This document shows, one piece after another, positions 11,168-32,831 of a stretch of 64,000 nucleotides of DNA. The notes below the pieces were generated by a model, which worked only from the letters and a program-made list of their open reading frames with translations, ran no database searches and had not been told where the DNA came from. This DNA is from Symbiotaphrina buchneri (lineage: Eukaryota > Ascomycota > Symbiotaphrinales > Symbiotaphrinaceae), in the NCBI GenBank assembly GCA_001599915.1, contig BCIG01000011.1:496001-560000 (forward strand). The letters run 5' to 3'. The position numbers and the translations under genes are program-made. Each line of letters starts with the position of its first letter. Within the stretch, counting starts at the first letter, position 1.

Positions 11168-12420
11168 TTACGCCAAACCCTTCAACACCGCAGCTTCGGC
11201 ATTTAATATAGATGACCCCGCAGCACCAATGACCGCTGTTTAATCGTTAGCAAGGTTGGCTCAGCCAGCAGCATAATTGTGCAACTCACTGTTGTGGCTC
11301 AATGCAACAAATTTGATGTCAAAGATACCGCTGTCATCCTTCCTGACCCGCCCGACACTGACAGTGTAACCCCCTTGAAGATCCCTATCCAGACGCGGTT
11401 GCGGCCGGTCATCTTCTTCCATGACCACAATCGCGTTTTCAGGCGCTGATGGACATCCCAGCTTCTGTGCTTCTGATATGTATTCTCGCATAGCCTGCTT
11501 AACGCTTTCTGCATCCGGAGGTGGGCGCTTCGCGAAGTGCAGTGAGACGCAAGCCATATGCCCATCCAACACAGCTACCCTATTGCAAGCTGCCGAGATG
11601 AGCAGGCTCTTCTGATATTCCACAGTAGTGGCATCTGCCGTGACCGAACCCAAGATCTTCTGCGCCTCGGTCTCTACCTTGTCCTCTTCCCCTGATATGT
11701 ATGGCACAACGTTGTCGAGAATATCCATACTGCTGACCCCCGGGTAGCCTGCTCCGCTGACAGCCTGCATCGTCACCACGCTGACCTGATCAACAGGGCC
11801 GAATTTTTGCTGCAAAGCCGCCAGCGGTATAACCAAACCAATAACCGAGCAATTGGAGTTGCACACTAAGAAACCCTTATCCACCCCGTTTAATTGACGT
11901 TGGTGTGGTATGATGTCGAAGTGGGAAAGATTGATCGTTGGCACCACCAAGGGTACATTAGCATGTCGTCGATAGTTCTTCGCATTTGAGAATACAGGCA
12001 GATTAGCCTTTAAGAATGCCATCTCTGCTTCACTTAGCAACCATTCCCCCCGAACAAGTAGGAAGACTCCCTTACCAACATCGCCAGCAACATCACTGTC
12101 CAAGCCGGAGAAGACGAGATCGCAGTCTGCGAACTCTTCCGGCTTGCACTCCTTTACCACCAGCTCGCCCACATCTCCTGACATGGGCGTGGACTGCTTC
12201 CACCTGACCGCATCCTTATATTTCTTGCCGGCTGATCGGGCAGAGGCGCCAACTGCATGTAGGACGAAGGCCGGGTGCAGGGCCAGAAGCAGGACGAAGC
12301 GCTGGCCGACAGAGCCGGTGGCCCCCAGGACGGCTATGATGGAGATGTTAAGACTATTTCACTCCACTTGAAAGGGCATATCCACTTACCGCATTTCTTC
12401 TTTGGAAATTGAGGTGCCAT
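11168..12420 (-). CDS. HOM2: Aspartate-semialdehyde dehydrogenase
   Basis: Converts aspartyl-4-phosphate to aspartate semialdehyde with NADPH, the branch step to threonine, methionine and isoleucine. Four exons (12420-12390, 12333-12076, 12024-11290, 11235-11168) join to 363 residues. The Rossmann start reads [15 protein letters not shown], the active-site region is [17 protein letters not shown] with the catalytic Cys, and [20 protein letters not shown] and [16 protein letters not shown] follow. The end is [21 protein letters not shown]. The third intron (12025-12075) is 51 nt with no stop, so retention would insert 17 residues in frame. The last intron is needed to reach the conserved C terminus. 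Very secure. Confidence 0.95.
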
Positions 12421-22109: not shown

Positions 22110-25100
22110 TCAAATCATCAAAAGCCCAGCTGCCACCATGGCTCCGAAGCCCCAGGCGCCCATGGAGACCTTGTTCGCAGCACCGGTAAAGGTGGCCTTG
22201 CTCGAAGACGTAGTGGACGTCTTTGTGAAGGCACCGGTCTTCGCACCAGTTCCAGTCGCGGCGATGGTGGAGTTGCCGAAGAAGGGACCCACTGACTTGG
22301 TGCTGGGAGCGACCGGTGAGACGACCTCGGTGATGACGGAGGTAATGATCTTGCTTGGTGCAGCGCCCGCAGCGCCCGCAGCGGCCGAGGTAGCGACCTT
22401 GACGGCAGCCGAGGTAGCGGCCTCGACAGCAGGCGTGGCAGTGGCAGCAGCTGAAGAGACGGGAATGGTAAGGGTGACAGTAGTAGGGGTGGCGGCACAG
22501 ACAGTGCAGACCGTGACCGTTGTTGTGAAGCCAGCCGGGACACCGGTAGTCTGTGCAGGGGCGGCACCGGGACCGTATGTGGATGTGACGGTGGTGCTCA
22601 GGGTGGTGAAACCAGTTGAGCAGACTGACACGTACTCCGCTATTAATGTGTTAGCAACAGAAACTCGTAGGAAGGGGGGAGCTTAGGTAAGACTTACTGA
22701 TATAAACGGTGGTGTAAACGGCAGGGACGGTCAAGGTTACGGTAGTCGGGGCTGCCTCACAGTTCTCGCAGACTGTCACCGTGGTAGTGAAGCCAGCCGG
22801 GACACCAGTGGTAGGGGCACCACCAGCGGGAACGGTAGCCGTGATAGTCGCGGTCGCGGTCGAGTATCCAGTCTCGCAAACGGTGACATAGGTAGTAGTG
22901 TAGACAGTAACAGTCATCGGGCCGGAAGGAGGTGCAGTTGCGGCTGCGGCGGCAGTAACAGTCTCGGTGATGGGAACGGTCAAGGTGACAGTGGTAGGAG
23001 TAGGACCGCACACTTCACACACAGTAACCGTGGTAGTGAAGCCAGGGGCAGGGGCACCGCTTGTCATGCTCGCAGGACAGACTGTGGTAGTATAGGTTGT
23101 GGTCAGGGTAGTGTAACCCGTAGAGCAAATCTCCGTGTAAGTGGTCGTAATGACTGTGGTGATTGTCTCCGTTGAGCCACCAGCAGCGGACGTGGTCGAC
23201 TGAGCGGGACCCACGGTAATGGTGCCAGTGGTTGAAGGCTCACCAGTAGTAGAGCCGGAGCCAGAGCCAGAGCCGGAGCCGGAGGTAGTCGTCGATGGCT
23301 CGATGCTTGCGGAGCCAGTTGAGCTAGAGCCGGAGCCAGAACCAGAGCCAGAAGCAGTCGTCGATGGCTCGAGGCTGGCGGAGCCGGAGCCAGAAACAGA
23401 GCCAGTCGTTGATGGGTTAATGCTTGCTGAGCCAGTCGCCGAGCCGGAGCCAGAGGCGGTGGTAGATGGCTCAATGCTTGCTGTGCCAGAGATGCTGCTT
23501 GACGGGACCGAGATAGTGGACTTGACGGAAGCACTGCCGGAGCCGCTGACTGATCCGCTGACTGATCCGCTGATTGACCCGCTGGGGAGACCAGACGAGG
23601 CACCGGTGCTGGTGCTGCTAGTACCCACGCCTGTCCCGGTGCCGGTGGGTCCAACACTGGATGTCGAGTTGCTCATTGGGAAAGGTGTCGAAGAGCTGCT
23701 TGCCTTGCTTGAAGCAGGACCGCTTGATGCAGCACCAGTTGACAGGGAACCCACGGAGGAACCGGCTGAGCTGCTCTTGGAGGACGGAACACCCGTGACG
23801 CTGCTGATCTTGCTCGTGCCAGTGGGGCCAACAGAGCTCGTAGAGTTGCTCTGAGGGAAGGGCACCGAAGAGCTGATCGCAGATGAAGAGACCGAACCAG
23901 AGGCTGGTCCAGTCGAGAGCGGACCAGTCGAGAGCGGACCGGTGCTAAGAGGCGCGGTCTTACTACCACTGACGGTGGCATTGGTCTTGGTTGAAGGGTT
24001 GATCGAGATAGGCGCAGACCCAGTCGAGAAAGGTACGCTGGTCGGCTTGGAGCTCGTAGTGTTGAACTTGCCAGTAGAGATAGAAGCCGAAGGGGAGCCG
24101 GATGCTTTGCCAGTGCTGAGGCTAACGCCCGTGCTAAGCTTGACGGAGCTGCTGCTGGTAGAGTTCAATGTCTTGCTGGAGCTGGGACCAGTGCTCAGAG
24201 GAACAGATTTGATTGAGCTTGGACCAGTGCTCAGAGGAACAGATGGCTTAATTGAGCTTGGACCAGTGCTAAGATTGATGGCGGAGCTGCTCGTTGAGTT
24301 GAACTTTCCAGTAGCCACAGAGAGAGTGGGCGAGCCAGAAGGCTTTCCTGTGCTCAGGCTGACACCAGTGCTGAGTTTGATGGTGGAGCTGGTCGAGTTC
24401 AATGGCTTGCTTGAGCTAAGACCAGTGCTCAAGGGGATCGACTTGGAAACACCAGAGCTGAGCGGGATGGAAGGCTTGCTCAATGGACCGGTGCTCAGAG
24501 GGATTGACTTGGAAACACCAGAGCTGAGCGGGATCGAAGGCTTGCTTGAAGGGCCGGTGCTCAAGGGGATGGACTTGGCGGAGACACCTGAGCTAAGCGG
24601 GATCGAAGGNNNNNNNNNNNNNNNNNNNNNNNNNNNNNNNNNNNNNNNNNNNNNNNNNNNNNNNNNNNNNNNNNNNNNNNNNNNNNNNNNNNNNNNNNNN
24701 NNNNNNNNNAAGGGGATGGACTTGGCGGAGACACCTGAGCTAAGCGGGATCGAAGGCTTGCTTGAAGGACCAGTGCTCAAGGGGATGGTCTTGCTCGATA
24801 CACCCGAGCTAAGCGGGATGGAAGGCTTGCTGGATGGGCCAGTGCTCAAGGGGATCGATTTGCTGGAAGAGACACCGGAGCTAAGCGGGATCGAGGGCTT
24901 GCTTGATGGGCCAGTGCTCAAGGGGATCGATTTGCTCGATGAAACACCGGAGCTAAGCGGGATCGAAGGCTTGCTTGATGGGCCAGTGCTGAGAGCAACC
25001 GACTTGCTTGAAGACGGTCCAGAGCTCAACGGAATTGAGGGCTTGCTTGATGGGCCAGTGCTCAAGGGGATCGACTTGCTTGAAGATGGTCCAGAGCTGA

Positions 25101-27048
25101 GCGGGATCGAAGGCTTGCTGGATGGACCAGTGCTCAACGGGACGGATTTGCTTGAAGACGGTCCAGAGCTCAATGGGATTGAAGGCTTGCTCGACGACAC
25201 ACCAGAGCTGAGCGGGATTGAGGGCTTGCTCGAAGGGCCTGTGCTCAAGGGGATCGACTGGCTGGAAGAGGGTCCAGAGCTCAACGGAATTGAAGGCTTG
25301 CTGGACGAGACGCCAGAGCTCAATGGGATAGAAGGCTTGCTGGACGGGCCGGTGCTCAAGGGGATCGACTGGCTGGAAGAGGGTCCAGAGCTCAACGGAA
25401 TTGAAGGCTTGCTGGACGAGACGCCAGAGCTCAATGGGATAGAAGGCTTGCTGGACGGGCCGGTGCTCAAAGGAACAGACTGGCTGGATGAGGCTCCAGA
25501 GCTCAATGGGACTGAGGGCTTGCTTGAAGGCCCAGTGCTCAGCGGGACGGAGCTTCCCGTGCTTAGAGGGACCGATGAAGCTTTGCTAGATCCGCCGGTG
25601 CTCAAGATCACGCTAGCCTTTGACGAAGGACCGGTCGTCTTAGTTTGGGGGTTAATTGAGCAACTGCAAGCGCTCTTGACTTGTGCATCATCAAAGCCGA
25701 GATCCGTAAGAATTTTGTCAATGATGACCTCACCCTCGAGGTACAGCTTGCAGAAGTCTTCGGCAACCCAATCCAACGCCTTGAAGCAGAAGTCAGGGGT
25801 GCAAGTTGAAGCAATCGCGGAGCTGGTCTTGGAGCCAGAGCTCGTAACCAGGGATGGCTTGCTAGACACCGGCCCGGTGCTCAAAGGCACCGAAACAGAA
25901 CTGGAGGAAGCGCCAGTGCTGAGAGGGACCGACACAGAGCTCAGGCTAGAGCTTGCAGGCTTGCTCGAAGAGCTTGATGACGCTGGGCCAGTGCTGAGAG
26001 GAACCGAGACTGGGATCGAGCTGCTGGAGCTTGCAGGCGAGCTTGAAGAGCTGGACGAAGCTGGACCAGTGCTGAGAGGGACAGGCACAGAGCTGGAGCT
26101 GGAGCTTGCAGGCTTGCTTGAGAAGCTTGACGATGCCGGGCCACTGCTAGCCGCGCTTGACACGGGGCTGGAGCTGGCTGGGGCGCTGGATGTGATCGAG
26201 GAGCTAGGGACCGAGCTGGAAGCAGAGCTAGATACTGGCCCAACCGATGGGGAAGCGGAGCTCGAAGGACCACTTGTGCTCAGAGGAATTGACGATGAGC
26301 TGGAAGCCTTGCTCGACGAGGGGCTCGAAGACGCAGCACTGCTACTCGGCGAAGAGGTCGCAGCAGGCGAGCTCGAACCTTGAGTGGTGGTCACGGGCAC
26401 TGCAGTTGGCGAAGACAACTTAGCCGTCGACGTCGGGTGGACAATGCAAGAACAGGCACTGGAAACCTGCTCCTCCCCAAATCCTTGGTTGATGAATGTG
26501 TCCAAGCATGGGACGATGTTGTTCAAATATAGCCAACAGAATCCCTCCGCGAAAGGCTCAACAACCTCGAAGCATTTGTCGACAACGCAGGTGGGAGCGA
26601 CTGATGCAGACAGCGTTGATGAGGCTTTAACTGTGGTGGTCGGGATGCTAGACGAGGACGCGGGAATCGAGGAGCTGGACGCCGGGGCCGACGAAGCGAC
26701 GGATGAGGAGGGCTGGACCGTGGATGTAGGTTGTGCTGACGAGGAAGCTGGAACGCTGGATGAAGTTTGGGCGGCGGATGATGAAGTCGGGACGGAGGTG
26801 GTCGAGCATGAACAAGCGCTCGAGACTTGTTGCTCGTTGTGACCCTTATCCTTCAGCTCTTGTGGACATGAAGTCTTCCCAGTCAGGTACGTGGGACAGA
26901 AATTCTGATTCTGATCTTTCGAGCAGTATGACTTCACGTCGCTGTAGACAGTATCCTCCACACAAGAATCGCCCCCATTGTGAGCATTGACACCTGCAAT
27001 CAAGGACACGACGGCGAGCAACGCCGGGAGTGTCGTCTTGAAATGCAT
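22110..27048 (-). CDS. Giant Ser/Thr-rich GPI-anchored cell-wall protein with tandem repeats
   Basis: Predicted secreted, GPI-anchored surface protein. Two exons (27048-22698 and 22639-22110) give about 1626 residues, counting the N gap. A signal peptide (MHFKTTLPALLAVVSLIAGV..NA) is followed by three Cys modules of about 50 residues, each ending in a V(S/K)SACSC motif and separated by Ser-rich linkers. The centre is a long tandem repeat of PLSTGPSSKPSIPLSSG-type units. The C-terminal part has three related modules, each with a GFTTTVTVC core, a second Cys pair and TPTTVTLT(V/I)P. The end (NKVSMGAWGFGAMVAAGLLM) is a GPI signal. The repeats and Ser/Thr content suggest heavy O-glycosylation and an adhesin or wall-structural role. 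True length is unknown because 100 N lie inside the repeat. An 813-residue antisense frame here is a by-product of the biased codons. Confidence 0.88.
24430..25560 (-). repeat. Coding tandem repeat (PLSTGPSSKPSIPLSSG units)
   Basis: A repeat in the GPI protein gene made of alternating half-units PLSTGPSSKPSI and PLSSGVSSSKSI of about 13-14 codons, with small changes (SKSI, SQSI, SAKSI, SKTI). Neighbouring units are often identical over 60 bp or more, for example around 25270-25360 and 25360-25450. Such arrays vary in copy number between strains. Confidence 0.9.
24610..24709. other. Assembly gap (100 N)
   Basis: Exactly 100 undetermined bases, flanked on both sides by the same repeat unit. 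This is most likely a fixed-size placeholder for repeat copies that could not be assembled. Confidence 0.95.
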
Positions 27049-29991
27049 GATGACAATAATACTATTAAATTAACACTCTCCTCAAGCGAACGTATATGAG
27101 AGGTCGTGAAAACGAAAGGACGCAAACCGAACGGTCTGCAAAGCTCACGAAGACGGAGCGATGGGTGGAAAGGAAGAAGACAAGAGGAGAGAAAGAGGGT
27201 GTGTAGGATGGGAAAAGGAAAAGGAAAAGCGGAGAGGAGGAGGAAGTCCCATCAGGACAGGCGGTCGAGCTGCTGAGCAAGCTCGTCGAGCTGTGGCACG
27301 GGAGAATCATGAGCGGATCAGCCTTGTAGCGGCGCTGGCCCCCTGTCGACTCGGCCATAGCGTTTGATGAGAGCTTCCCAAACAAGACATGGAAGGAAAG
27401 TTACAGAGGCACCGTCTGTCCACATTTGGGAGCATTGACGGTGCCGGAGCGGCCATCAGGGGCGATGAGCCATGATCATTGGCCGAGGTTTGCTGGATGA
27501 GTCCATGTTCCCGCATGATGGCGGCAGCGCCGAGGGAAATAGCAGGAGCAACAACAGGGAAGAGCCCAAGGTGGATGCACGCTAGGGCTGCCGGGATCAA
27601 TGCATCTCAAAGCGCTCTCTCCGGTGGTACTCTAGGTACGAGTACGGAGCGGTGGATGTGGAGGGAAGTTCGGCATCGAGACGTTTGGGGGGTGGTGACA
27701 CCCGCAGCATGGGAAATGGCAGTCTTGGCGACAACCGCGTGCTAGGCTAGCGCCGTGCGTCCAAGCCTCTTTGGGCGCTAGAGGGCCGACCACAAAACTG
27801 TCAACTCACTGGCGCCTCGTGGTGGCCTGAAAAGGAAAAGAGGGAAATCGTGACGCTGCAGGGGAAAGGGGGACAGGCGGAAAAGGCGAAGAGCGAAAAG
27901 GGGGCTCAACTCTCTCGCTTAGGGGGCCTTGTGCAAACAAAGCAACAAACCCGTACCAACAAAGCAAGCAGCTCCGTGACCGCTCGCTCAGGCCCCAGCA
28001 CCGAGCGCATTATCGCCCCAAGAAACTGTCAATGCCCACGTTTTTTTTATTTTTTCATACCTTATGCTTCTTGCCCGCTCTCGCCTACGGTATTGCGCAA
28101 CAACACACAGACACGCGTTCAGACGAGAGCAGTCCGATCATCGCATAGCATCGCATGGCAGCGCCCGTTCACCCTGGTGGTAGGACCCGGCTTTCGGAGA
28201 AAATCAGAGTCTGCACAATTTTGCAGCTGTGGTTGTGTGGTCATGGCCGTGCTCTGTCTGCACCTGCCCCCTGTAGTATTCCTCTCCGAGCTGTGTCAGC
28301 GACAGACCCAGCATCACCACGCGTCTTCCGAAGTTGCCTCCTCGTAGCGTGCGTGCGCGCATGAATGACGAAATAAACGAATTTCGTTTATAAGAGCTTC
28401 CTATGATCCTATCGGAACAGTGGGCAAAAACTGGAGCAGGTACAGGATGCATCGGTGTGATAAGCCTCCTTGGGCCCGCATCAACATCGAGAGCTCTGTC
28501 GCTTTGCATGGATGAGACGTGGATGCCAGCCACAAAACTCGGTGCCAGAATTCTGCCGTGCCTGTTCCTGACCTTTTCAGCATTAGCAGGAGTTAGCGAG
28601 CACTGGGAAGTATTCTGATAGGTCGGACGGTGAACAAGAACGGTAAAAGCATAATGAGACATGCAGGGCGGTGGGAAGGTGGGAGATGAGAGATGAAGAT
28701 CAGGGCGAGGGCGGCTGGTTCGTCGCTACGTGTGTGTACCTACCTAGGTAGATTGGATGATGGATTAGGGTAGCGTTTCCTTCGGCACGGATGGGCCTAA
28801 AAACCTTGAAAGCTCTTCTCCCACGCTAACGCAGGTACGAGCACATCGACCTTAGACCAGAGAAGGCTAAAGTCGGCGTCTTAGTGCGCTCAGGGCATCT
28901 AAGAAAAGATCACAAAAAGGCGCTACGTCAGGAAGACAGTAACGCAGGTACAGCTACCTACTCCACCATCGAGGTCAGCTGGACCGATGAGGTACCTGTA
29001 CAGGAGTAGCGGCCGCATCGACTGCTTTTAAATGGTGAAGTCGGCCCTCGATGAAAAAGTGATCATGTCCAGCCTCTCGGAAATGTTCATGGCACTAGAT
29101 GAACTGTAGCGGCTTAGGCACACTCCTAGCGCTTCCATGACAGCAATCACAATAAACCCAAACTGAGGCACCTGTAACCTGTTGCTAGCAGCTACTCGCA
29201 CTCGTACCGGTACGAAATACCGTACCAACATCCCGTCCCTCCTTCTCATCTCGCTTCAAAGATTGACCTCACCGGGGTCGTTGACAAATTTAGCACAGAC
29301 ACTCACAGACTCCGGAGCATCAGCCTTCGCGCAATTTACCCATTGTCATCCTGCCCGATGAAACCGGTCGAACATCGAGTTCGAAACTTTCGAATGAGTA
29401 CATGAAGTCGCTCAATATTCGCTCTTAGTCGTACAAGTACTCTACTCTTACCTTGCTCGTAGATCAATCAATAGTTGTGGACAGAGTAGGAACAGGTCCG
29501 TGACACCGCCTTCTTTTGGCTCTGTGCCTTTGCTGTGTGGCCCCTCTTCCTGGCAGCGCAGCAAGATACTTTTCGAGCTCTCCGCGCCAACTGCTGGGCT
29601 TGCATGATTCTCCAAACCATAATCTTGTTGTCTTAATTCCTATAGCGGCTAAATATCCATCGGACGCACAGGAAGGATAGGACAGCCACCGCCGGACACT
29701 CCAGGCAGATACGAATAGACCGGAGCTCTTGGACCCACCTCGCACCTGCAGCCACATTTGAGCGAACCCAGATCAGTATAGTAACCATGACCAGCGTCCA
29801 ACCAGGCAGCATAAAGCTCGGCGGCCTGAGGTATTTAGTCTGTTGGGCTGCCAGACGAGCGATGCTCTGATTGATCATCACCAGGGCAAGGCTTATGGAC
29901 CGCTCTCCACCTCTTGTACGAGTACGGCGGACATCCGACTTAGCGGGCAGTCAGCCAGCCACTGTTGGGCGGTGAGCCCTGCATTGCAAGC
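27049..29991. other. Long intergenic region
   Basis: About 2.9 kb without a convincing gene, between the GPI protein start (promoter side) and the stop of the DOPA dioxygenase. It contains purine-rich GGAAAAGG-type runs (27170-27250), a T-run at 28039-28053, and a TACCTAGGTA palindrome at 28741-28750. Open frames (for example minus 28204-28662 and minus 29633-29881, the latter with one hydrophobic stretch) show no known domain. Confidence 0.5.
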
Positions 29992-30718: not shown

Positions 30719-32685
30719 CCTCAGATCTAGTCTGGATCGAAACTCGCGAGGTAGTATCTTATGATCTTGCTTGCACGATCGGCCGGAGGATTCTCTCTTG
30801 CGATACGTAGGCAGAAGCCAACAGAACGATCCGCTTCCTTGATATACCAGAGCGAGTAAAAGAGCGTATGCAATGACAGTCCCAATAGCAAGCCCGTTTG
30901 TCAGCCCACACAAATCATCTGTAAAGGTACAGTGATGCTTTGAAATCCGGAAGGTGACCCAACAGAGCGTCCGACGACGACTGGCATTGGTGTGTGGTGT
31001 GCGATAAGATAAACTATCCGATCCGAGCTATTATTGCGTGCTTAATACAGCGGCCCCCACGGGTGGGGTAGCTACCGGCCGGTAGTTTCACATCCCAACC
31101 CATCCAAGCTGGGCCTCACAACTTTGTCTCAAGGAAATGGTTGAAAAGACCAAGCTTATCCAAGTAGAGCAATGATCATACTCCATATGGTCGCTATTGA
31201 AATGCTTGGAGATGGTAAGAACCTTCCTAATTCTTTGCTCAGTGAGTGTACCACATGCATTGCTGTGAACAACGGTTGGACCAACCGGCTTGTAAAGGCA
31301 CCGCCCTGCTCAGAGCTCGTATACATACCCCGCCTATGTTGTTGTGCAACACAAACTTTGAGGGTGGCCTTAAATGGCGTGAACATAAACCACTGAGCCT
31401 GTATGATTTCTTGTCTGTTCGCTGCTGGCTCTGTGAGTCGCGAGCGACTGAGCTTGACGACACCGGCAGAGCCATAGCGATAGTACGGATAGTCCGAGCG
31501 GCTCCCCTTGCGTCGGCCGAAGAAAGGCAGAGAGGTCCCGGTCCCGCTGTCGCAGGATCGATGATCAACGATTAGTTTGCCGTCACCTAGCGTCATCCAC
31601 ACAGATGTGTTTGGCAGAGCGCAAAGTGATTGTTCTACAGGCGTCGGACAGTTACCTGTGCGCTGTGGTTTGAATCTGAAGCAGTTGAAGCGGAAATACG
31701 GCACGTCCTAGAGCTTCACCTCGGTTAGGTGTTATTTGTGGAGTAGGTGATGGCTCAAGTCATCCAAGATCGTCATGCGGTATATCAGCGTATCGCTGCG
31801 TCGCCTGTTTGTGCCTGGCGAGGAACATCATATCGATGGCTCAGCTCATCTCTGGAGGAAGATTGTAAGGGAGTGCTGCAGAAATGGCGCGCACAGACAC
31901 AGAGGGCATCTGTACTCGAGGAAATGCTATCGTTCAGATGGTCTTGGATCGGATCCTCAATTGGTATGGGAGTTTACCGTAGGGATTTGACCCCACTGGT
32001 AGCAGGTGCCCACATTTATTTGTAGGTCGAGAATGCACATTGATGCTAAGGTTGAGATGTAGAACACACAACAAGAGATGCTTGTGATCTCTCACCGATC
32101 TATTCCACTGGTGTAGAATAGGAGGCGTAAAAAAAGTAACTTCGTGTCCAAAAAGCGGTTTATATGAACAGAGTTCTTGTTTTCGAAACAATTTCGTGGT
32201 AAGCATGAGAGACAAAGTCAAGACTCTGATTTATCAAACGAAGAGAAAAATTCCGTAACACCACTTCCACTCACTAATCGTTATATCTTTGCCTGTCCTC
32301 CAGTCAGGACTGCCAGCGATCAAATATGATATATGTTTATTGGTCGATAACTTTCTTGCACCGTTCACTCAATCTGATGATATGTTGAGGAGGGAATAGT
32401 TGATTATTTGCGTCTTTGCCTATCTCAAAAAGACTGATATTATTATCAGAGACCGGAGCTCCGTTTTTCCAACCCACGCCCTCACAGCCCCGGACACCAA
32501 CATAAGCACCTCTATTCGTAACCGAGAGCTTGTTAGATCACAGAAAAATGATAACAAAAACTAAGAACACAAGGCAGTCTGAAATGGGGGTGGAAGGAGG
32601 TAAAAAAAAAAAAAAAAAAAGCAGCATGAAATAGAAGGATCAAACATCAAAAAAACAAAAAAAAGTGAGGACATAGAATCAACTG
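30719..32685. other. Intergenic region with low-confidence open frames
   Basis: Nearly 2 kb upstream of the dioxygenase. A minus-strand open frame at 31156-31704 (GTG-initiated, about 180 codons, with GTGTSLPFFGRRKGSRSD) could be part of an unrecognised gene, but I find no domain and no good start. From about 32030 the sequence becomes AT-rich. A run of 19 A lies at 32602-32620. Confidence 0.4.
32657..32664 (-). terminator. RNA polymerase III terminator of the tRNA gene
   Basis: Read on the minus strand this is a run of eight T beginning 22 bases beyond the tRNA 3' end. A second run of seven T follows one base later. This is the expected signal for polymerase III to stop. Confidence 0.75.
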
Positions 32686-32831
32686 GGGTTGATCCGGGGA
32701 TCGAACCTGAACGATATTAGACAAATTGTCATGTTTTATGTGCTTGCAAATGTGTGCGCTTACCCGGGACCTCTCGCATTTGAGCATAGGGTGAACCCTA
32801 AGCGAGAATCATACCACTAGACCAATCAACC
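32686..32831 (-). tRNA. tRNA-Pro(AGG) with a canonical intron and an extra spliceosome-like intron
   Basis: Read on the minus strand, all parts of a tRNA are present: acceptor stem GGTTGAT/ATCAACC with discriminator C, D arm GTC TAGTGGTAT GAT, anticodon stem CTCGC/GCGAG, loop TTAGGGT with anticodon AGG, variable AGGTC, and T arm CCGGG TTCGATC CCCGG. The mature length is 72. A 17-nt intron (TTCACCCTATGCTCAAA) sits between positions 37 and 38, where nuclear tRNA introns belong, and its ACCCTA can pair with the anticodon. A second, 57-nt insert (32707-32763) splits the 5' strand of the T stem. The A box (TGGTCTAGTGG) and B box (GGTTCGATCC) are both intact, and a T8 terminator follows. Identity as tRNA-Pro is firm. 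Whether the gene is expressed and spliced is unknown. Confidence 0.85.
32707..32763 (-). other. 57-nt spliceosomal-type intron inside the tRNA T stem
   Basis: The insert starts GTAAGC, has CTAAT about a dozen bases before its end, and finishes TTCAG, matching the donor, branch site and acceptor of the protein-gene introns in this window in both sequence and size. Removal joins CCGG to GTTCGATCCCCGG and gives a perfect five-pair T stem. The last G of the insert plus the next bases make a full B-box consensus. Confidence 0.75.

Follow-up and report, generated by a model that had tools for sequence, protein, structure and literature searches.

The tRNA-Pro(AGG) gene at this locus raises the question of whether a nuclear tRNA gene can be interrupted by an intron of the mRNA type and, if so, which machinery would remove it. 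In the textbook view, spliceosomal splicing is coupled to RNA polymerase II (Pol II) and tRNA introns are tied to the tRNA endonuclease. We analyzed the window, a 64-kb stretch on contig 11 of an assembly of 82 contigs (23.4 Mb), together with the tRNA genes of the whole assembly. Judged from sequence, U2-type spliceosomal introns very probably interrupt many tRNA genes of this ascomycete; the precursors would be made by RNA polymerase III (Pol III) and processed by both the spliceosome and the tRNA endonuclease.

A preliminary description had reported a complete tRNA-Pro(AGG) gene on the minus strand in which a 17-nt intron follows position 37 and the T arm holds a 57-nt insert, and this architecture is exact to the base (Table 1). 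The letters given for the insert, GTAAGC at the start, CTAAT near the end and TTCAG at the finish, also match together with their coordinates. Removal of the insert predicts an exon join at 32764/32706 and raises the cloverleaf score from 50.8 to 70.8 (an in-house score based on stems, T8, A14, GG, T33 and T loop), in agreement with the claim that exact removal restores a perfect T stem. Four cuts are equally good for this insert and GT...AG is among them; one of 60 shuffled inserts allows a GT...AG cut. The A box (consensus TRGYNNARNGG), the B box and an oligo-T terminator are all present, and the B box is contiguous in the DNA because the last base of the intron is its first G. In the intact 64-kb window, neither ARAGORN nor Rfam (gathering thresholds) called a tRNA. 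When the spliced sequence was supplied, ARAGORN called a tRNA, misplaced the 37/38 intron and read the anticodon as CAA; the anticodon AGG was taken from the cloverleaf fit, not from ARAGORN.

Table 1. Features of the window and mRNA-type inserts in tRNA genes elsewhere in the genome. Insert positions in tRNA numbering are our reading of the spliced sequences.
Feature	Coordinates	Strand	Intron or insert site	Remarks
tRNA-Pro(AGG) gene, unspliced	32686..32831	(-)	insert 52/53	146 nt with discriminator base; sequence and cloverleaf score
Exon 1 (positions 1-37)	32796..32831	(-)		
A box TGGTCTAGTGG	32814..32824	(-)		0 mismatches against TRGYNNARNGG
Canonical intron	32779..32795	(-)	37/38	17 nt
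Exon 2 (positions 38-52)	32764..32778	(-)		
mRNA-type intron	32707..32763	(-)	52/53, T stem	57 nt; GTAAGC...TTCAG; same interval recovered by excision on structure alone (4 ties)
Putative branch site CTAAT	32716..32720	(-)		putative branch A at 32717; 10 nt to 3' splice site
B box GGTTCGATCCC	32697..32707	(-)		
Exon 3 (positions 53-73)	32686..32706	(-)		
T8 run, probable Pol III terminator	32657..32664	(-)		21 nt downstream
T7 run	32649..32655	(-)		after the T8 run of tRNA-Pro(AGG)
Aspartate-semialdehyde dehydrogenase (ASADH) gene	11264-12358	(-)		in-frame intron of ~51 nt
L026 Arg(CCG)			19/20	
L027 Ile(AAT)			53/54	
L028 Trp(CCA)			51/52	
L035 Thr(TGT)			32/33	
L075 Ala(AGC)			13/14	
L076 Gly(GCC)			11/12	
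L093 Gly(GCC)			11/12	
L079 Pro(TGG)			23/24	
L089 Arg(TCT)			52/53	
L120 Gln(TTG)			52/53	
L122 Val(AAC)	G000:C20:406340-406860		15/16, D loop	GC-AG intron GCAAGT...CTAAC...ACAG
L123 Ser(AGA)	G000:C22:360630-361150		15/16 and variable arm	two inserts
L130 Asp(GTC)			30/31	
L163 Ala(AGC)			51/52	
L195 initiator Met(CAT)	G000:C11:679930-680125		24/25 and 52/53	two inserts

The preliminary description had also likened the insert to mRNA introns. The lengths are indeed similar, on the basis of four homology-anchored introns: two in the uL11 gene (44 and 58 nt), one in the SRP54 gene (46 nt) and one in the ASADH gene within the window (about 51 nt, limits read by eye). If the ASADH intron is read through, it appears as a 17-residue insertion relative to 5jw6. 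The best PDB matches of ASADH were 5jw6 (504 bits), 4zhs (471 bits) and 6c85 (461 bits), which we take to be Aspergillus, Trichophyton and Blastomyces chains; 3hsk (402 bits) and 5cef (398 bits), presumably Candida and Cryptococcus chains, scored lower. The best match of uL11 was 7olc, presumably a Chaetomium chain, with 229 bits (next match, 215 bits). By these matches the genome resembles that of a filamentous ascomycete. Zn2Cys6 and Fungal_trans domains were detected in the window with Pfam. Two long open frames overlap on opposite strands, 22651-27069 (minus strand, 1472 aa) and 23855-26383 (plus strand, 842 aa); Pfam gave no match for the frame on the minus strand.

The preliminary description had placed the insert in the window gene alone, but the trait extends across the genome. 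As shown in Table 1, 18 mRNA-type inserts are present in 16 of the 43 classified nuclear tRNA genes, and the other 27 genes are uninterrupted by such inserts. Eight inserts lie in the D arm, seven in the T stem, two in the anticodon arm and one in the variable arm. None of the 18 sits at 37/38. Canonical 37/38 introns of 9-62 nt, separate from the inserts, were found in 37 of the 43 classified genes by in-house scoring, which is a high share. The two genes with two inserts, for tRNA-Ser(AGA) and initiator tRNA-Met, are both without a 37/38 intron.

These numbers depend on how the inventory was made. An Rfam tRNA search of the genome gave 27 matches among the best 62 of 613 candidates. A B-box scan with GGTTCRANYCC gave 172 matches; 171 were screened for a matching 5' end, and the remaining one is on C78. 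Together the two scans yielded 47 tRNA-like loci including the window gene, and a D-arm pattern added the initiator to make 48; five one-mismatch matches to this pattern lie outside the count. A further scan with AGTTCRANYCC gave 153 matches, mostly outside the inventory. Subtraction of two loci of the mitochondrial type (L008 and L015) and three unclassed loci (L019, L033 and L127) left 43. Another mitochondrial-type locus, L073, is a weak Rfam match outside the scored set. The assignment of L008 (C3), L015 (C1) and L073 (C9) to the mitochondrial type is by judgement; all three lie in large contigs and are perhaps nuclear pieces of mitochondrial DNA or assembly joins. The unclassed loci are tRNA-like, and no simple excision accounts for any of them: L019 has a C-rich anticodon loop without T33, L033 has an odd 78-nt form and the anticodon arm of L127 is unreadable. 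Inserts in the T loop or the acceptor stem would escape the search, which depended on acceptor ends that pair and, for most loci, on a B box. Genes for tRNA-Phe, elongator tRNA-Met and tRNA-Ser(GCT) were not found in the inventory, which is incomplete, and similarity searches of the genome with yeast-like Phe, initiator Met and elongator Met queries gave no matches.

All 18 inserts are 49-69 nt long. As called, 17 start with GT and one with GC, and every one ends with AG. The lone GC intron, in the tRNA-Val(AAC) gene, has the strong form GCAAGT. Position +5 is G throughout (18/18), with a G content of 0.155 in the inserts; +4 is A in 14, +6 is T in 13, and C or T precedes the final AG in 17. 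We searched for CTRAY in the region 8-35 nt from the end of each insert and found it in 16 of the 18, at a distance of 10-18 nt (5000 shuffles: mean 3.1, maximum 9); within this region it is absent from the inserts of the tRNA-Thr(TGT) and tRNA-Pro(TGG) genes. In their ends, 5' splice-site consensus, branch-site motif and host-like length, the inserts thus appear to be introns of the U2 type. Local alignments between inserts were short, and no convincing introner family emerged: among 153 pairs, the top two scored 12 (the window insert with that of L163) and 11, and the maximum in 300 shuffled pairs was 10. Candidate origins of the inserts are reverse splicing, as the preliminary description had suggested, an introner or repair.

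The limits of the inserts were examined by two excision tests. In the unrestricted test, every cut of 25-135 nt was evaluated by cloverleaf fit alone, blind to splice sites, in 15 genes (without the initiator), and the called cut was among the best-scoring cuts in 14 of them. The controlled test varied the length by ±6 and the start by ±8 around the called limits, with 60 shuffles per insert. Here, a GT/GC...AG cut was among the equal-best cuts in 16 of the 18 inserts, against 0.87 expected. For the insert of L075 and the second insert of the initiator gene, a cut other than GT-AG was best, by margins of 2.1 and 3.5 points, respectively. Tied best cuts were few for most inserts, but L026 had 26 and the insert in the variable arm of L123 had 111. 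In L035, L123 and L195, splice signals may have steered the choice of limits, which were initially set by visual inspection.

One rival reading is that the interrupted genes are inactive pseudogenes or insertion-damaged copies. Short insertions in the D and T arms of eukaryotic tRNA genes have been described as mostly hitting one of many synonymous genes and as supposed marks of pseudogenes (PMC4090602, excerpt). Against this idea, the spliced cloverleaf scores of all 16 interrupted genes are 65-75 (initiator, 69.4), in the range of intact genes (66-75 for the 27 nuclear genes without an insert), and the stem mismatches of a decayed pseudogene were looked for in the window gene and not seen. 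Run on the 16 genes in unspliced form, ARAGORN found nothing in nine and assigned a wrong anticodon to seven; from the spliced forms it called a tRNA in all 16, with the expected anticodon in 12 (the second cut of the initiator was one base off). It misplaced the 37/38 intron in the remaining four, one of which is the window gene. The two tRNA-Gly(GCC) genes, L076 and L093, have identical mature sequences (71/71) and 37/38 introns that differ at 3 of 28 positions. In contrast, their mRNA-type introns agree in only 30 columns out of 56, although GTGAGT, TCTAAT and ACAG are preserved. This comparison indicates that exons and splice signals are conserved and that the remaining intron sequence drifts. 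One tRNA-Ile(AAT) gene (L027) carries an insert and another (L007) does not, and the mature forms differ at 2 of 73 positions. Moreover, several essential isoacceptors are known here by interrupted genes alone. A genome scan for an uninterrupted initiator (junction pattern, up to three mismatches) gave no match; the window gene is the sole tRNA-Pro(AGG) copy found in the genome by a search that was not exhaustive, and no uninterrupted copy was found; a similarity search that overlooked the Ala paralogue L075 found no uninterrupted gene for tRNA-Trp(CCA), tRNA-Gly(GCC), tRNA-Val(AAC) or tRNA-Pro(TGG). Since the inventory is incomplete, it may have overlooked uninterrupted genes for some isoacceptors, and this argument is strong, not complete. 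We consider pseudogenes highly improbable; the spliced products are presumably functional tRNAs. Another variant keeps the spliceosome and replaces the polymerase: if Pol II transcribed the interrupted genes, their introns would be ordinary. The A box is broken in three genes (L075, L076 and L093, with three mismatches in place; in the latter two, a match with one mismatch lies further along), and the intron of L028 contains T5, a possible Pol III stop. However, with three spacings allowed, the A box has no mismatch in 11 of the 16 interrupted genes and one mismatch in two, and a run of at least five T lies in the downstream stretch examined (60 nt or fewer) of all 16, as it does for all 27 other genes. 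The B box, mostly a search criterion, is present, and the T-stem inserts adjoin it on its upstream side. Runs of at least four T could end Pol III transcription; one of the 18 inserts contains such a run, where 4.2 would be expected (as few in about 5% of shuffles), a weak sign of Pol III read-through. Because of the B box, the oligo-T end and, in 13 of 16 genes, an A box with no more than one mismatch, the interrupted genes are probably transcribed by Pol III, and transcription by Pol II is very unlikely.

A different enzyme might also remove the inserts. Ectopic introns cut by the tRNA endonuclease at bulge-helix-bulge (BHB) motifs are described for Cyanidioschyzon merolae, where the introns of tRNA-Ile(UAU) at 12/13 and 53/54 fall in the same two arms (PMC9602550, excerpt). 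When a shift of one base from register was allowed, 4 of the 18 inserts and 15 of the 37 canonical introns had a 4-bp central helix; in exact register the figures were 0 of 18 and 3 of 37, by a test too crude to recognize most canonical introns. Yet endonuclease introns would have no reason to carry GT/GC-AG ends, G at +5 in 18 of 18 and CTRAY in 16 of 18, and the yeast endonuclease is said in a review to cut strictly at 37/38 (PMC4033280, excerpt). We give the endonuclease very little probability as the enzyme for these inserts. Self-splicing introns, such as degenerate group I introns, are disfavoured as well. Group I introns follow a U, but T precedes the insert in 3 of 18 cases and G in 12, and no Rfam family was reported in the 64-kb window, to which that scan was confined. 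On the other side, all 18 inserts end in G, and putative small group I introns of 56-81 nt are described in fungal rRNA genes (PMC3160393, excerpt). Self-splicing seems to us extremely improbable. The reading of a spliceosome-type intron within an otherwise good tRNA gene, which the preliminary description had offered for one gene, is strengthened by the 15 further genes with the same signature and by the paralogue comparisons.

We propose that spliceosomal introns of the interrupted genes would be removed as follows. Pol III would make an interrupted tRNA precursor. The GT/GC, CTRAY and AG signals would direct the spliceosome to excise its one or two mRNA-type introns, and the tRNA endonuclease and ligase would take out the separate 37/38 intron. 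Spliceosomal removal presumably comes first, because inserts in the D and T arms would block folding of the tRNA body. More than one third of the classified tRNA genes, the initiator included, carry mRNA-type introns, and therefore the cell probably splices tRNAs with its mRNA machinery. With such introns spread through the nuclear tRNA set and two splicing machines per precursor, it is likely that translation in this filamentous ascomycete depends on the spliceosome.

If this is true, the genes would represent a class of split tRNA gene not previously described and a new category among tRNA gene architectures, although the intron type itself is already known. The spliceosome would then be able to process short, folded Pol III transcripts, and tRNA supply and translation initiation would be tied to spliceosome capacity. 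As short and structured Pol III genes, they would also serve as a natural experiment on how introns are gained. Reading frame and codons are irrelevant in tRNA genes, so mechanisms of intron gain could be tested on such gains. In practice, tRNA finders can fail on genomes with inserts of this kind, as the ARAGORN results illustrate.

Published work is considered here from excerpts of the cited papers. Eukaryotic tRNA introns are described there as endonuclease introns, mostly at 37/38 (PMC4090602, PMC4033280, PMC8450103), with nucleomorphs and C. merolae named as exceptions (PMC4090602), and the tRNAscan-SE 2.0 paper limits eukaryotic tRNA genes to one intron (PMC8450103). Excerpts of three papers (PMC11782384, PMC9602550, PMC8216456) contain no case of a spliceosomal tRNA intron. 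Likewise, a literature search with coverage of few subscription journals and preprints showed no precedent for spliceosomal introns in tRNA genes among the matches listed, as judged by titles and the beginnings of abstracts. In Pezizomycotina, intron evolution is biased towards loss according to a survey across fungi (PMC8476143, excerpt), which makes gains here more surprising.

Among known systems, archaeal multi-intron tRNA genes resemble the present genes in that introns occupy many cloverleaf positions, several per gene (PMC8450103, PMC4090602); they differ in that the archaeal introns are described with a BHB motif and removal by the endonuclease. The tRNA genes of C. merolae and of nucleomorphs have extra introns in the D and T arms beside 37/38, up to three per gene (PMC9602550, PMC4090602). 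In C. merolae, however, removal is ascribed to the endonuclease and BHB motifs, whereas the inserts described here have GT/GC-AG ends, G at +5, CTRAY and lengths of 49-69 nt. The introns of the Guillardia nucleomorph are 3-24 nt long and their removal is called unknown in the excerpt, in contrast to the longer inserts with splice signals in this genome. The nearest known cases are the mRNA-type introns of U6 and rRNA genes. The rDNA of lichen fungi has spliceosomal introns, U2-type and in structural RNA genes as here, and yeast spliceosomes remove them from Pol I rRNA (PMC8527467, excerpt); their host is rRNA, and they are not joined with endonuclease introns in one transcript. In fission yeast, the spliceosome removes a U2-type, mRNA-type intron from U6, a structural RNA transcribed by Pol III (PMC10484740, excerpt), and the same is predicted here for tRNA. 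Because U6 snRNA meets the spliceosome anyway, reverse splicing is a natural origin for the U6 intron. In the present genome, the U6 snRNA gene (L189, G000:C13:78988-79086), the only match over the cut-off among the best 47 of 1458 candidates, is uninterrupted, a point that counts against the proposal. Fission yeast has one such intron in an snRNA, whereas in this ascomycete 18 introns of this kind interrupt 16 tRNA genes.
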